Assembly: GCA_019748055.1 (NCBI GenBank)
Contig: JAIEQC010000049.1
Location: 1 to 64,000 of the forward strand
Length of the DNA: 64,000 nt
DNA from: Caulobacteraceae bacterium
GTDB taxonomy: Bacteria > Pseudomonadota > Alphaproteobacteria > Caulobacterales > Caulobacteraceae
Direction: 5' to 3'
Part shown: piece after piece, positions 18,002-59,398 of the stretch
Position numbering within the stretch: position 1 is the stretch's first letter
Layout of the letters: the number at the start of each line of letters is the position of its first letter
Program-made: the position numbers and the translations under genes
The notes under the pieces: model-generated
Database searches by the model: none
What the model was told of the DNA's origin: nothing
What the model saw: the letters and a program-made list of their open reading frames with translations, nothing else

Positions 18002-19608
18002 AGCTATGGCGCGATCGCCGGGGAGGGGTCGCCGTGATGGCGGCGGCTTCGGCAGGCCTGGTCTGCGCCTTGGCGGCTGCGATCGACGTGGGGGCTGTGG
18101 CGCTTGAGGCGCGTCGCCTGCAGGGCGCGGCCGATCTCGCCGCCCTGTCGGCCGCCGCCGATCTGACGCGCGCGGAGGCGGTCGCGGCTCAAACCGCCGC
18201 CGACAACGCGCCGAACCTGACGGCGACCGTGACCGAGACCGGGCTCTACACCGCTGACCCCTCCCTGACGCCCGCCGCGCGGTTTCAGCCGGGCGGTGAG
18301 ACCCCGAACGCCGTCCGCGTCACCCTGACCAAGGAGACGCCGCTGTTCTTCGGCGCTGTGCTGCTGGGCCGGCCGACCTTCACCCTGACCCGCACGGCGC
18401 GCGCCGCTCGACCCATTCAGCCCCGGGCGGTGTTCTCGATCGGCTCCCGCCTTGCGGGACTGGACGGCGGCGTGGCCAATGCCCTGCTCACGGGTTTGAC
18501 CGGATCTCAGGTGTCGCTGTCTCTGATGGACTATCAGGCATTGGCCGCCGCCGACGTCGACCTACTGTCTTGGTGGTCGGCCCTGGCGATGGAAGCCGGC
18601 GTGGCGGCGTCGGACTTCGAGGGCGTTGTGGCGTCCCGCATCGATGCGGGACGCGCGCTGGAACTGGTCGAGCCCCTGCTGGATGGATCGTCGCGCTCGG
18701 CCCTGTCGGCTCTGTCGCAGGCCATGGCCGGGCGTCAGGTCCGCATCGGCGACCTGGTCGCGCTGGAACCGGGGGCAGAGGGCCTGTTCGAAGGCGGGCT
18801 GACCGCCGGCGTCTCGGCGCTGGACCTCGCCATGGCGACGGCCCAGATCGCGGGTGGCGACCGGCAGGTGGCATTGGACTTCGGGGCCGACGTGGGTCTG
18901 GCGTCGGTCACGGCCGATCTGGCCGTTGGGGAACCGGCCCAGTCCTCGGCCTGGCTGACCGTCACACGCTCGGGCCAACCCGTCATCCGCACGCGTCAGA
19001 CGCGCCTGGTCGTTCGAGCCCGCACCTCGGACAAGCTGGCGGGTCTGGCCCAGGTCGATCTGCCGTTGATGGTGGAATTGGCGCCCGCCGAGGCCCGTCT
19101 GGCCTCCGTCGACTGCCCCGCCGGGGCCGTGGCGGTCGAGGCGCGTCCCGGCCTTGCCCGCGCGGCCGTCGGCGCGACGACCGGCGACCTCGACGACTTT
19201 TCTCGAGACCTGTCGGTGGAGGAGGCGCGCCTGCTGTCGGTGGCCGGCCTCGTCACCGTCCGCGCCCAGGCACGGGTCGAGGCGGCGCAGACCACCTTCC
19301 GGCCCCTGACCTTCGACCGGGCCGAGGTTCAAGCGCGGGCCCGCAAGTCCGTGTCGACCACCACCATCGGCCAGTCGCTCGTGGCCAGCCTGCTGCGAAA
19401 CCTCGACGTGACCGTGTCGGCGCTGGGGCTCGGCCTCGGGCTGGGCGGGCTGGAGGACAAGCTGGCCGCCCTGCTGATCCCGGTCGGGGCCACGCTGGAC
19501 GGCCTGCTGAATCCCCTGCTGTCCCTGCTGGGCGTACGTCTCGGCGAGGCCGACGTGCGGATTTCGGGCCTGGACTGCCGCTCAGCCGCCCCGCGGCTGG
19601 TGGGTTAG
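17998..19608 (+). CDS. TadG-like protein (putative Flp pilus assembly, DUF2134-type)
   Basis: A 536-residue protein beginning 'RDRRGGVAVMAAASAGLVCAL', a short cytoplasmic stretch plus one N-terminal membrane helix, then 'GAADLAALSAAADLT', the hallmark of TadG family members. The rest is an Ala/Leu/Val-rich periplasmic region rich in beta segments, with no von Willebrand domain that I can see. Its start ATG overlaps the TadE stop. The main Tad machinery (ATPase, platform, prepilin peptidase) is not in this window. It ends over the convergent transglycosylase stop. Confidence 0.8.
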   Translation: MKLWRDRRGGVAVMAAASAGLVCALAAAIDVGAVALEARRLQGAADLAALSAAADLTRAEAVAAQTAADNAPNLTATVTETGLYTADPSLTPAARFQPGGETPNAVRVTLTKETPLFFGAVLLGRPTFTLTRTARAARPIQPRAVFSIGSRLAGLDGGVANALLTGLTGSQVSLSLMDYQALAAADVDLLSWWSALAMEAGVAASDFEGVVASRIDAGRALELVEPLLDGSSRSALSALSQAMAGRQVRIGDLVALEPGAEGLFEGGLTAGVSALDLAMATAQIAGGDRQVALDFGADVGLASVTADLAVGEPAQSSAWLTVTRSGQPVIRTRQTRLVVRARTSDKLAGLAQVDLPLMVELAPAEARLASVDCPAGAVAVEARPGLARAAVGATTGDLDDFSRDLSVEEARLLSVAGLVTVRAQARVEAAQTTFRPLTFDRAEVQARARKSVSTTTIGQSLVASLLRNLDVTVSALGLGLGLGGLEDKLAALLIPVGATLDGLLNPLLSLLGVRLGEADVRISGLDCRSAAPRLVG

Positions 19609-20894
19609 CGGCCCGCCGCCAGCGCGATCAGCTCGTCGGCCAGTGCGGCGGTCAGGTGCCCGTCGGGCAGCCGTCCGGTCGCCGCTTGCCAGCGCCGCAA
19701 TGCCGCCCGCGTGTTGGCCCCCACGACCCCGTCGATGCCCTGGGTGTCGTAGCCGAGCGCCGTCAGCGCCCGCTGGGCCCCGATGCGCTGGTCGCGGCTG
19801 ATCGGGGCTTCTTCGGGCCAAGGCGTGAGCAGGCCCGGCTTGCCCATGACCCCGTCGGCGGTCAGCCCGATCGCGAGGGCATAGGAGACGGAGTTGTTGT
19901 AGCGCCGGATCACATAGTGGTTGGGCAGGGCCAGGAAGGCCGGCCCGCGCGCGCCCTGCGGCAGCAGGATCGTCGCTTCCTCCAGCGCTTCCGCGTCGGT
20001 CGGCGCCCCGCCGCCCGCAAGGCGAACACCCTGCTGAGCCCAGAAGCTCCAGGGCCTGCGCTCGCCCTCGGCCAGGGCATAGTCGAAGCCCGGCGGCAGC
20101 AGGACTTCGTATCCCCACGTCTGACCGCGCTTCCATCCGGCCTGCGCCAGCAGGTTGGCGGCCGAAGCCAGGGCGTCGGCGTCGGAGCCCCAGATGTCCA
20201 CCAGACCGTCGCCGCTCTGGTCCACGCCCAGGCGCAGATAGTTGTCGGGCATGAACTGGGTCTGGCCCATGGCCCCGGCCCAGCTGCCCTTCAGGCCCGC
20301 GCGCGAGCGGCGGCCGTCGATCACGATGTCGAGCGCGTTCTTCAACTGCTGCTCGGCCCAGTCGCGGCGGCGGCCGTCATAGGCCAGCGTCGCCAGAGAT
20401 CGGATCACGTCCATGTCGCCCTGGACCGCCCCAAAGGCGCTTTCCTGTGCCCAGATGGCCAACAGGATTTCGGTCGGCACGCCGAAGCGCTGCACCACCT
20501 CCCACGGCACCCGGTCGGCGCGCTGCTTGGCCTGGGCGATTCGCGCGGGCGTCACGGCGTTCTGGACGTATGCGCCGGCGGGGCGGCTGAACTCCGGCTG
20601 GTTGCGGTCCAGCCGCACGACCGAAGGATCAGGCGACAGGCCTTCCAGCTCCCGAGCATATTCCGCACGACGAGCGCCGCCGTGGCGGTTCAGGAAGCCT
20701 TCCTTCCAGCCGTCGAACCCGGCCTGGTCCACGACCGGCTCGGCCGGGCGCCGAGGCTCGGGCTGCGCAGGCGGCGGCGTCGGCTGCTCCGGCTGCGGCT
20801 CCGGCGGCAGGGCCACCGGCATCGGCGGCGTCTCCACCATCGGCGCGCAGGCGGCGACGGTGAGCACCAGCAGCAGTTTCGACGTCAGGCGCAT
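19605..20894 (-). CDS. Lytic murein transglycosylase (MltB type) with peptidoglycan-binding domain
   Basis: A lipoprotein (lipobox TVAAC) that cleaves the glycan strand non-hydrolytically. After a Pro-rich linker (about residues 25-55) comes the SLT/MltB domain with 'AIWAQESAFG' (catalytic Glu, about residue 150), 'WAGAMGQTQFMPDNYL' and 'YNNSVSYALAIGLTAD'. The C-terminus is a PG_binding_1 domain ('ALTALGYDTQGIDGVVGANTRAALRRWQ' in two overlapping parts). I use the ATG at 20894, which places the signal peptide correctly; the track's MMM start at 20927 adds eleven residues. Confidence 0.92.
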   Translation of the reverse strand: MRLTSKLLLVLTVAACAPMVETPPMPVALPPEPQPEQPTPPPAQPEPRRPAEPVVDQAGFDGWKEGFLNRHGGARRAEYARELEGLSPDPSVVRLDRNQPEFSRPAGAYVQNAVTPARIAQAKQRADRVPWEVVQRFGVPTEILLAIWAQESAFGAVQGDMDVIRSLATLAYDGRRRDWAEQQLKNALDIVIDGRRSRAGLKGSWAGAMGQTQFMPDNYLRLGVDQSGDGLVDIWGSDADALASAANLLAQAGWKRGQTWGYEVLLPPGFDYALAEGERRPWSFWAQQGVRLAGGGAPTDAEALEEATILLPQGARGPAFLALPNHYVIRRYNNSVSYALAIGLTADGVMGKPGLLTPWPEEAPISRDQRIGAQRALTALGYDTQGIDGVVGANTRAALRRWQAATGRLPDGHLTAALADELIALAAGR

Positions 20895-21123
20895 GGCGGA
20901 GCGAAGCGATTCCAGAGGCATCATCATGATCTAAGCGAAACGGACGAACAGTCCGTTGCACGAACGGGGCCAAAGCGTGACGACCGTGTCGTCGCAGCCG
21001 CAGATTGAAGGTCACGCCCGTCGGGGGAAAGTCATGACCGTCGTTCCCCCTTTGCCGTCGTTAACCCTCATTTCGCTTGGAAATTCGTCCGACGGCGACG
21101 TATCGCGGGCCGTCCTCTGATAC

Positions 21124-21200
21124 GGCCTGGTGGCGGAGGGGCGACGCGTCGGGCGTGCAAGCCCGAAGACCCTCCGTTCAACTCGGGGGCCAGGCCTCCA
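21124..21200 (+). tRNA. tRNA-Cys-like gene (GCA) with an irregular cloverleaf
   Basis: A 77-base sequence with tRNA-Cys character: acceptor 'ggcctgg' pairs with 'ccaggcc', discriminator T and encoded CCA (Cys tRNAs carry U73), D-arm 'tggcggagg', loop 'tgcaa' giving anticodon GCA, and T-loop 'ttcaact'. Two features are irregular. The anticodon arm is either five pairs with an eight-base loop or six pairs with a six-base loop, never the canonical seven. The T-stem has six pairs ('cctccg'/'cggggg'), so the acceptor plus T helix is 13 bp. It sits in the 465-base space between the transglycosylase and rpmJ. It may be functional, a diverged second copy, or a decayed tRNA. Confidence 0.6.
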
Positions 21201-21359: not shown

Positions 21360-21485
21360 ATGAAGGTCCGCAGCTCGATCAAGTCGCTCAAGACCCGCCA
21401 CCGCGACTGCAAGGTCGTGCGCCGCAAGGGCAAGGTGTTCGTCATCAACAAGACCGACCCGCGCTTCAAGGCCAAGCAGGGCTGA
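21360..21485 (+). CDS. rpmJ: 50S ribosomal protein L36
   Basis: A 41-residue basic protein '[18 protein letters not shown]...' with the family's N-terminal and '[20 protein letters not shown]' segments. It is the C-minus type: it has a single Cys and lacks the full zinc set. It binds 23S rRNA in the large subunit. The start is the ATG at 21360, eight bases after AAGGA; the track's 21216 start is an artefact. A 40-nt hairpin element precedes it and another follows it before the terminator. Confidence 0.95.
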
Positions 21486-51824: not shown

Positions 51825-53231
51825 ATGTCGCTGGTCCTCTACGACACCCTGCATCGCGAAAAGCGCGTCTTCGAACCGCGCGACCCGAACCGGGTGACAC
51901 TCTACGTCTGCGGCCCGACGGTCTATGACCACGCCCACATCGGCAACGCCCGCCCGCCGGTGGTGTTCGACGTCCTGGTGCGCCTGCTGCGCCGGACCTA
52001 CGGCGCCGACAAGGTGATCTACGCCCGCAACGTCACCGACGTGGACGACAAGATCAATCAGCGCGCCGCCGCCCTGGGCGTGCCGATCGGCGAGATCACG
52101 GCCAAGTACGCGGCCCACTATCTGGCCGACATGGCGCGCCTGAACGTCGCCCCGCCGGACCTCGCCCCCCACGTCACCGACCACATGGACGCGATCGTCC
52201 GCCAGATCGCCGCCATCGTCGACGCCGGCTGCGCCTATGCCGCCGAGGGCCACGTCCTGTTCGACGTCTCCAGCTATCCGAACTACGGCCGCCTGTCGGG
52301 CCGCAACCTCGACGACATGATCGCCGGCGCCCGCGTCGAGGTCGCGCCCTACAAGAAGAACGCCCACGATTTCGTCCTGTGGAAGCCCTCGAAGGAGGGG
52401 GAGCCGTCGTGGCCCAGTCCGTGGGGCGACGGCCGCCCCGGCTGGCACATCGAATGCTCCGCCATGATCGAGGAGAACCTCGGCCTGCCCATCGACATCC
52501 ACGGCGGCGGCATCGATCTGGTCTTCCCCCACCATGAGAACGAGATCGCCCAGGGCGTCTGCGCGCATGGCCACGCCCGCGGGCCCGAAGCGCACGGCGA
52601 GTATGCGAAATACTGGATGCACAACGGCTTCCTGACCGTGGACGCCGAGAAGATGTCCAAGTCGATCGGCAACGTCCTGCTGCTGCACGACCTGGTGCAG
52701 TCGATGCCGGGCGAGGTCGTGCGCTGGGCGTTGATCAGCGCCCACTACCGCCAGCCGCTCGACTGGAACCAGTCGCTGCTGGAACAATCGAAGAAGAACC
52801 TCGACCGCCTCTACGGCGCCCTGCATCGCGCAGCCGGGATCGAGGCGACCGAGGACGAGCCGCCCGTCGACTTCCTGAAGGCGATTCAGGATGACCTGAA
52901 CACCCCGGGGGCCATGGCGACCCTGTTCGCCCTGTCCAGCGAGATCGAACGCGGCATGACCTCCGGCGACCATGCCGCCGTCGCCGTCGCCAAGGGCCGG
53001 CTGGTCGCTGCCGCCGCTCTGCTGGGCGTGCTCCAGTCCGACCCCGCCGCCTGGCTTGAAGGCGACGTCGACGACGCCCTGCGCACCGAGGTCGAAGAGC
53101 TGCTTCAGGAACGCGCCGCCGCCCGCGCGGCGAAGGACTGGCCCGCCGCCGACCGCATCCGCGACCGCCTGAACGCCCTGAACGTCGTCGTCATGGACGG
53201 CCCCGACGGCGCGACCTGGCGCATGAAGTGA
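51825..53231 (+). CDS. cysS: Cysteinyl-tRNA synthetase
   Basis: A 468-residue class I synthetase. The HIGH motif is 'YDHAHIGNARP' (about residue 35), and the KMSKS motif is 'EKMSKSIGNVLLLHD' (about 270). Zn ligands Cys/His are in the usual places ('LYVCGPT', 'WHIECSA', 'HENEIAQ'). The chosen ATG at 51825 gives the family length; the track's 51708 extension is unlikely. There is no obvious ribosome binding site upstream. Divergent from folE. Confidence 0.95.
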   Translation: MSLVLYDTLHREKRVFEPRDPNRVTLYVCGPTVYDHAHIGNARPPVVFDVLVRLLRRTYGADKVIYARNVTDVDDKINQRAAALGVPIGEITAKYAAHYLADMARLNVAPPDLAPHVTDHMDAIVRQIAAIVDAGCAYAAEGHVLFDVSSYPNYGRLSGRNLDDMIAGARVEVAPYKKNAHDFVLWKPSKEGEPSWPSPWGDGRPGWHIECSAMIEENLGLPIDIHGGGIDLVFPHHENEIAQGVCAHGHARGPEAHGEYAKYWMHNGFLTVDAEKMSKSIGNVLLLHDLVQSMPGEVVRWALISAHYRQPLDWNQSLLEQSKKNLDRLYGALHRAAGIEATEDEPPVDFLKAIQDDLNTPGAMATLFALSSEIERGMTSGDHAAVAVAKGRLVAAAALLGVLQSDPAAWLEGDVDDALRTEVEELLQERAAARAAKDWPAADRIRDRLNALNVVVMDGPDGATWRMK

Positions 53232-59196: not shown

Positions 59197-59280
59197 CGCA
59201 CGGTCCCGCTCATCGAGCACCCGTGCGGTCGAGGAGAACCCGTGAAGACGCCGGACCGCGCAGGGCGGCCGTCCCTTCAC
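59197..59280 (-). promoter_or_regulatory. metX leader hairpins, possible expression platform
   Basis: Two structures lie between the riboswitch and metX. 59242-59280 is an extended stem closed by 'gtgaag'/'cttcac', whose 5' side shares three bases with the riboswitch P1 helix, so the two exclude each other. 59197-59227 has 'cgcacgg'/'ccgtgcg' around an inner 'gctc'/'gagc' hairpin and ends five bases before the GTG. Neither has a U-run. A translational switch is plausible. Confidence 0.4.
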
Positions 59281-59398
59281 TCATCTCTCGCGGACTGAAG
59301 AAAGTCCCCGCAGGAGTTGGCACCGTGTCGGACCTGGGTGGGTCCGGTCGGTTGCCCCGGCGTCAAAGGGCCTATCCCTCAGCCGGTCTTGATGAGTG
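59278..59398 (-). promoter_or_regulatory. SAM-I (S-box) riboswitch
   Basis: On the minus strand, P1 pairs 'cactcatc' with 'gatgagtg'. The core reads 'tcaagaccggctgaggga', 'ggcaacc', 'ggtgccaactcctgc' and 'gagagatgag', the conserved S-box order with the kink-turn and pseudoknot elements. It lies upstream of metX-metB-hom, so binding of S-adenosylmethionine should reduce expression. Confidence 0.93.

Follow-up and report, generated by a model that had tools for sequence, protein, structure and literature searches.

A second tRNA-Cys-like gene with an altered anticodon loop and a lengthened acceptor/T helix was confirmed by reading the sequence at positions 21124-21200 (+) of the window, the whole 64,000-nucleotide stretch of Caulobacteraceae DNA analysed here. 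The gene is 77 nt long with its CCA encoded, and this tRNA-Cys paralogue and its relatives are referred to as tRNA*. We tentatively favour the view that tRNA* is a second tRNA-Cys that is charged by cysteinyl-tRNA synthetase (CysRS), selected against ordinary decoding and used outside the ribosome. With less confidence, tRNA* may be a dedicated non-decoding tRNA-Cys that feeds cysteine to a non-ribosomal pathway in Brevundimonas and a sister genus, with CysRS recognition kept, the loop disabled in either of two ways, by an added base or by the loss of U33, and the acceptor/T helix lengthened. A tRNA that CysRS can charge but the ribosome disfavours is the simplest reading because the charging determinants are kept, the decoding-loop features are lost and a standard tRNA-Cys is present. 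The features of tRNA* and its surroundings in the window are as follows.

19605-20927, minus strand: mlt, which we take to be a lytic transglycosylase-like gene; divergent neighbour, kept at 76 of 94 non-redundant loci
21124-21200, plus strand: tRNA-Cys paralogue tRNA*, from the sequence, ARAGORN, and DNA and covariance searches
21124-21130, plus strand: acceptor stem 5' strand GGCCTGG, partner of 21190-21196
21133-21147, plus strand: D-arm GCG-GAGGGGCGA-CGC with a 3-bp stem, a close match to standard tRNA-Cys
21149-21166, plus strand: anticodon arm with 5-bp stem TCGGG/CCCGA and loop CGTGCAAG, strong covariation
21157-21159, plus strand: anticodon GCA, found in all but one of the 56 distinct 77-nt members
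21171-21189, plus strand: T-arm CCTCCG-TTCAACT-CGGGGG, six pairs instead of five, from the alignment of members
21190-21200, plus strand: acceptor 3' strand CCAGGCC, discriminator T73 and encoded CCA, from the sequence
21360-21485, plus strand: rpmJ (ribosomal protein L36); downstream neighbour, kept at 75 of 94 non-redundant loci
51825-53231, plus strand: cysS (cysteinyl-tRNA synthetase), the genome's one match to PF01406

The elements of tRNA* are arranged in the order GGCCTGG-TG-GCG-GAGGGGCGA-CGC-G-TCGGG-CGTGCAAG-CCCGA-AGAC-CCTCCG-TTCAACT-CGGGGG-CCAGGCC-T-CCA. The D-arm retains the GG for the elbow contact, and the variable region AGAC has 4 nt. The anticodon loop CGTGCAAG has 8 nt, and C:G pairing at 32:38 would shrink it to 6 nt. 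Seven acceptor pairs and six T-stem pairs make up a 13-bp acceptor/T helix, in which the extra T-stem pair C48:G66 represents two inserted bases compared with standard tRNA-Cys (74 nt + 1 + 2 = 77). U8 faces the same G66 as C48, and tRNA* could alternatively be drawn as '8/5'. This description agrees with the earlier note, which had reported an intact tRNA-Cys acceptor, TCCA end, D-arm and T-loop, with GCA in a loop of eight or six bases and a six-pair T-stem. The D-arm bases CGGAGGG (21134-21140) are complementary to CCCTCCG in the T-arm region (21170-21176), and many crown members have a non-cloverleaf fold of lower energy. This alternative fold was set aside, because the energy minimum of standard tRNA-Cys is not a cloverleaf either and because the sister genus lacks the complementarity. 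Elsewhere in the window, a SAM riboswitch was identified at 59278-59398 (-) (RF00162, 82.4 bits).

ARAGORN called the window gene 'tRNA-???' at exactly 21124-21200 and gave the same label to 111 of 119 tRNA* copies. The Rfam tRNA model RF00005 gave no match at 21124-21200 at the gathering cut-off, nor at E<=1 in a search of the local stretch, and thus did not return the standard seven-base-loop fold that would have contradicted the earlier note. Among 16 tRNA* members tested, 14 fell below the RF00005 cut-off and two (L009 and L147) passed. The tRNA* class can therefore escape notice, because ARAGORN mislabels most of its copies and the Rfam tRNA model misses most of those tested.

A second, standard tRNA-Cys, which the earlier note had proposed to look for, was found in the source genome. 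This genome carries 41 tRNAs above the Rfam cut-off, including a tRNA-Cys(GCA) of 74 nt at L049 (GGCCTGATGGCGGAGTGGTGACGCAGAGGACTGCAAATCCTTGCACCCGGGTTCGATTCCCGGTCAGGCCTCCA). The acceptor and D-arm of tRNA* are near-identical to those of this standard tRNA, and the anticodon arm and T-arm differ. In all 21 genomes read, the standard tRNA-Cys has 74 nt and a seven-base C/U-U-GCA-A-A loop with U33, so decoding of Cys codons can do without tRNA*. CysRS is single-copy in nearly all genus genomes, and the cysS product is presumed to be the charging enzyme of tRNA*. In the window, cysS lies 30.6 kb from tRNA*; in about 40 Brevundimonas genomes it lies within 2-5 kb, in the arrangement cysS, mlt, tRNA*, rpmJ. 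Linkage to cysS was rejected as functional evidence, since cysS-mlt adjacency also occurs without tRNA* and the genes are apart in G060, G292 and G293. The proximity of cysS and tRNA* may be inherited context.

To establish the distribution of tRNA*, same-genus genomes and 16 genomes of the order were searched at the DNA level, and tRNA* was present in same-genus genomes and in none of the 16. A covariance model (R1) was built from 21 tRNA* copies. Among the matches listed, R1 scored tRNA* at 80.9 bits or more and standard tRNA-Cys at 72.8 bits or less. Counted by this gap, about 103 of the 131 Brevundimonas genomes carry tRNA*. One sister genus also has it, in both of its sampled genomes (G292 and G293), and R1 detected none in the remaining genera sampled from the family. 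Among 385 genomes sampled across the class, the window's own genome was the only one with tRNA*, and viral contigs gave no match. A pattern scan of named genomes retrieved 78 tRNA* loci, mostly labelled Brevundimonas; the remaining ones are labelled Caulobacteraceae, Caulobacterales, Alphaproteobacteria or unplaced bacterium, and one comes from a Bordetella MAG (L095). The tRNA* of this MAG is of the Brevundimonas type and its mlt protein groups with Brevundimonas, and the MAG is probably a mislabelled bin.

The locus is kept in most close relatives, and so it did not prove to be generally lost or degraded there, an outcome that would have spoken against the earlier note. Presence and absence mapped on the mlt protein tree require 12 changes, at least nine of which are forced by supported branches; tRNA* is therefore dispensable. 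G046 and G123 carry decayed copies at the syntenic site (L169:1244-1318 (-) and L174:1273-1342 (-)). These decayed copies look different, with a broken T-stem, a CCG end or indels. Eight genomes contain two tRNA* copies, and the second copies that were read sit elsewhere. Second copies away from mlt/rpmJ were seen at L009, L010, L090, L115, L134, L136, L142 and L161-L163; the copies in L115 and L161 adjoin a gene that, judged by eye, resembles priA.

Mean pairwise identity is 89% over the 77 nt of tRNA* and 55% and 54% over the 77 nt flanking it on either side. The downstream gene rpmJ is context and no part of tRNA*, and the gap between them ranges from 0.1 to 5.2 kb. At five loci (L074, L093, L113, L121 and L144) the gap is 2-5 kb compared with the usual 0.1-0.3 kb, which suggests insertions just 3' of tRNA*. 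The fold was examined in a gap-free alignment of 56 distinct 77-nt members with 500 shuffles. Standard pairs occupy 98.4% of cells, and 81 cells show double changes compared with 22.2 +/- 4.3 in the shuffles, none of which (0/500) scored as high. The covariation drops sharply once the partners are slid. Together with the contrast in identity to the flanks, this places the design of tRNA* well outside what chance would give. The signal comes mainly from the anticodon stem and from acceptor pair 7:67, which shows a joint switch from GC to AU in 11 of the 56 relatives. The T-stem is paired in 100% of cells and nearly invariant among the 56 members, and covariation is silent on C48:G66 because this pair is invariant among them. 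T-stem changes were seen in the sister genus and G060, where the six pairs are built from other letters (CCTCGG/CCGAGG and CTCCGG/CCGGAG). G17, G18, T54, T55, T73 and CCA are invariant in the alignment, and C56 is nearly so. tRNA* thus has a cloverleaf with D-loop GG, T-loop TTC and a CCA end, and GCA, U73, the acceptor, D-arm and T-loop are retained family-wide. The earlier note had left the choice between a specialised and a decaying tRNA. The odd features are found genus-wide and the stems carry compensatory changes, which argues for the former and against the latter.

Within the anticodon loop of the 56 members, position 33 holds U 45 times, C nine times and A twice, and A37 is present in 50. 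The anticodon is GCA in 55 members and UCA in one, a MAG copy (L130:1861-1937) with the same eight-base loop; UCA reads UGA and is seen in some selC* tRNA-Cys. Five distinct members have a seven-base loop, and all of them are without U33: UCGCAAA in L019/L112 and L094, CCGCAAA in L147, and CGGCAAC in L145 and L146. The loop of L018/L075 is one base longer. A seven-base loop with U33 is absent from every tRNA* family sequence examined. The sister genus, G060 and L094 fall near the base of the mlt protein tree. Early tRNA* therefore probably had seven loop bases and no U33, and the eight-base loop would have arisen later, an order that depends on the mlt tree, in which the basal forks are open.

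These loops bear on the alternative that tRNA* is a decoding tRNA, either a minor or conditional Cys isoacceptor or one that makes a +1 shift at chosen UGC-N sites through its eight-base loop. We consider this unlikely. Eight-base anticodon loops are used by +1 frameshift suppressors (PMC4764823), and a natural yeast mitochondrial tRNA-Thr with such a loop reads triplets (PMC7609411). The elbow bases and CCA of tRNA* are intact. The U directly 5' of GCA in 45 of the 56 members counts against a non-decoding tRNA, and a decoding role is therefore possible in those species. However, C or A takes this position in the other 11 eight-base-loop members, the genomes checked have a standard tRNA-Cys, and tRNA* has been lost repeatedly. 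In the early-branching and sister-genus members the loop has seven bases and no U33, and therefore frameshifting cannot be the common function. The parallel with frameshift-suppressor tRNAs drawn in the earlier note accordingly holds for the eight-base loop and breaks down at the early-branching members.

The evidence for the favoured reading of a chargeable, non-decoding tRNA-Cys includes the conservation and covariation of tRNA*, the loops without U33, the standard tRNA-Cys and the charging elements. In E. coli and yeast, cysteine identity is specified mainly by U73 and GCA (PMC9976931), and tRNA* carries both (T73 invariant, GCA in 55 of 56). CysRS would recognise U73, GCA and the tRNA-Cys acceptor and D-arm, all retained, and the single CysRS of the genome would probably charge tRNA* with cysteine. 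With its altered loop, of eight bases or of seven lacking U33, and its 13-bp helix, tRNA* would decode less well and be less readily used by EF-Tu. Charged Cys-tRNA* would be left for non-ribosomal use, for example the transfer of cysteine to a peptide, lipid, wall component or cofactor. S. aureus tRNA-Gly provides a precedent for tRNAs diverted from EF-Tu (PMC4052509). On this reading tRNA* would be expressed, charged with cysteine, excluded from the ribosome and used downstream. Counting against it, the UCA of one member should weaken recognition by CysRS, tRNA* is dispensable, and no enzyme that would use Cys-tRNA* was found among the families searched. The sigma-70-like signal upstream of tRNA* is weak (6.85 compared with 6.35 of 12 in shuffles), and no site passed in a sigma-70-like consensus scan of the window.

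An RNA with the look of tRNA-Cys could instead be a regulatory RNA or decoy that delivers no cysteine but binds CysRS, a modification enzyme or a nuclease, a reading that we regard as improbable. Bacillus cereus tRNA-Other acts inside a regulatory RNA, outside translation (PMC3399842), and the search for an enzyme that would consume Cys-tRNA* found none. SelA and SelB were each detected in 0 of 131 genus genomes, with the positive controls matched; Lant_dehydr_N (peptide aminoacyl-tRNA ligases) and CDPS (cyclodipeptide synthases) had no match, and no control genome gave one either. On the other hand, tRNA* retains CCA, U73, GCA and the L-shape contacts, seemingly beyond the needs of a decoy with one partner, and it has no conserved flanking RNA, unlike the larger transcript of tRNA-Other.

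It is very unlikely that tRNA* is maintained because mobile DNA uses it as an attachment site or carries it as cargo. The second copies at other places in the genomes where they were read, and the variable gap to rpmJ, which indicates that DNA inserts nearby, would fit such a role. Most of the genus, however, keeps tRNA* at a single conserved site; no 16-base piece of it recurs elsewhere in the loci examined, no viral contig matches it, and covariation of stems over the whole cloverleaf would be needless for an attachment site. Finally, that tRNA* is a decaying tRNA-Cys duplicate, as the failure of the Rfam model on the window gene and the degraded G046 and G123 copies at this site might suggest, is hardly credible and for the family is refuted by conservation: identity exceeds that of the flanks, stem changes are compensatory, length and elements are conserved across the genus and sister genus, and truly decayed copies look different.

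As tRNA* keeps the elements for charging and breaks those for decoding, it offers a direct test of whether tRNAs are set aside for non-ribosomal amino-acid transfer, and such a test would reach bacteria beyond those that form cell-wall bridges. tRNA* is also a natural scaffold, with 13 bp and an eight-base loop, for probing the limits of CysRS, EF-Tu and the ribosome, and it represents a conserved class of tRNA that routine annotation software overlooks or labels wrongly. No earlier report of tRNA* was found in the literature searched, a limited set of papers.

Several known systems share features with tRNA*. Like tRNA*, the selC* tRNA-Cys described by Mukai et al. 2017 (reviewed in PMC7609411) is an additional tRNA-Cys in which U73 and GCA (or UCA) go together with a changed acceptor/T branch. 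Its branch is 8/4 with an A51a bulge, and it has a long variable arm and a long anticodon stem, with selB* nearby in two delta-proteobacterial subgroups and in some cases cysS* too (PMC7609411). In contrast, tRNA* has a 7/6 branch without bulge, a 4-nt variable region and an eight-base loop, with no SelB and one CysRS. Bacterial tRNA-Sec shares the 13-bp acceptor/T helix, which is read by dedicated enzymes (PMC7609411). The tRNA-Sec parallel of the earlier note extends to this helix and no further; tRNA* has no long variable arm and, with one exception, no UCA, and the genus has neither SelA nor SelB. B. cereus tRNA-Other is also a tRNA-like gene thought to act outside translation (PMC3399842), but it borders a genomic island and belongs to a longer RNA, whereas in tRNA* the 77-nt tRNA alone is conserved. 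Frameshift suppressors and yeast mitochondrial tRNA-Thr(UAG) have the eight-base loop common to crown tRNA* (PMC4764823, PMC7609411), but early members of tRNA* have seven bases without U33, and its T-stem has six pairs. The non-proteinogenic tRNA-Gly of S. aureus is a paralogue kept beside normal copies, and its sequence changes make it less suited to translation (PMC4052509, PMC9976931), as the sequence would predict for tRNA*. Those changes affect G18-G19 and the T-stem pairs 49-65 and 51-63, and those of tRNA* lie in the anticodon loop and T-stem length; the users of the S. aureus tRNA-Gly are peptidoglycan bridge enzymes (PMC4052509, PMC9976931). tRNA* resembles selC* and the Staphylococcus tRNA-Gly and belongs to neither, and by analogy it would work most like the latter (PMC4052509).
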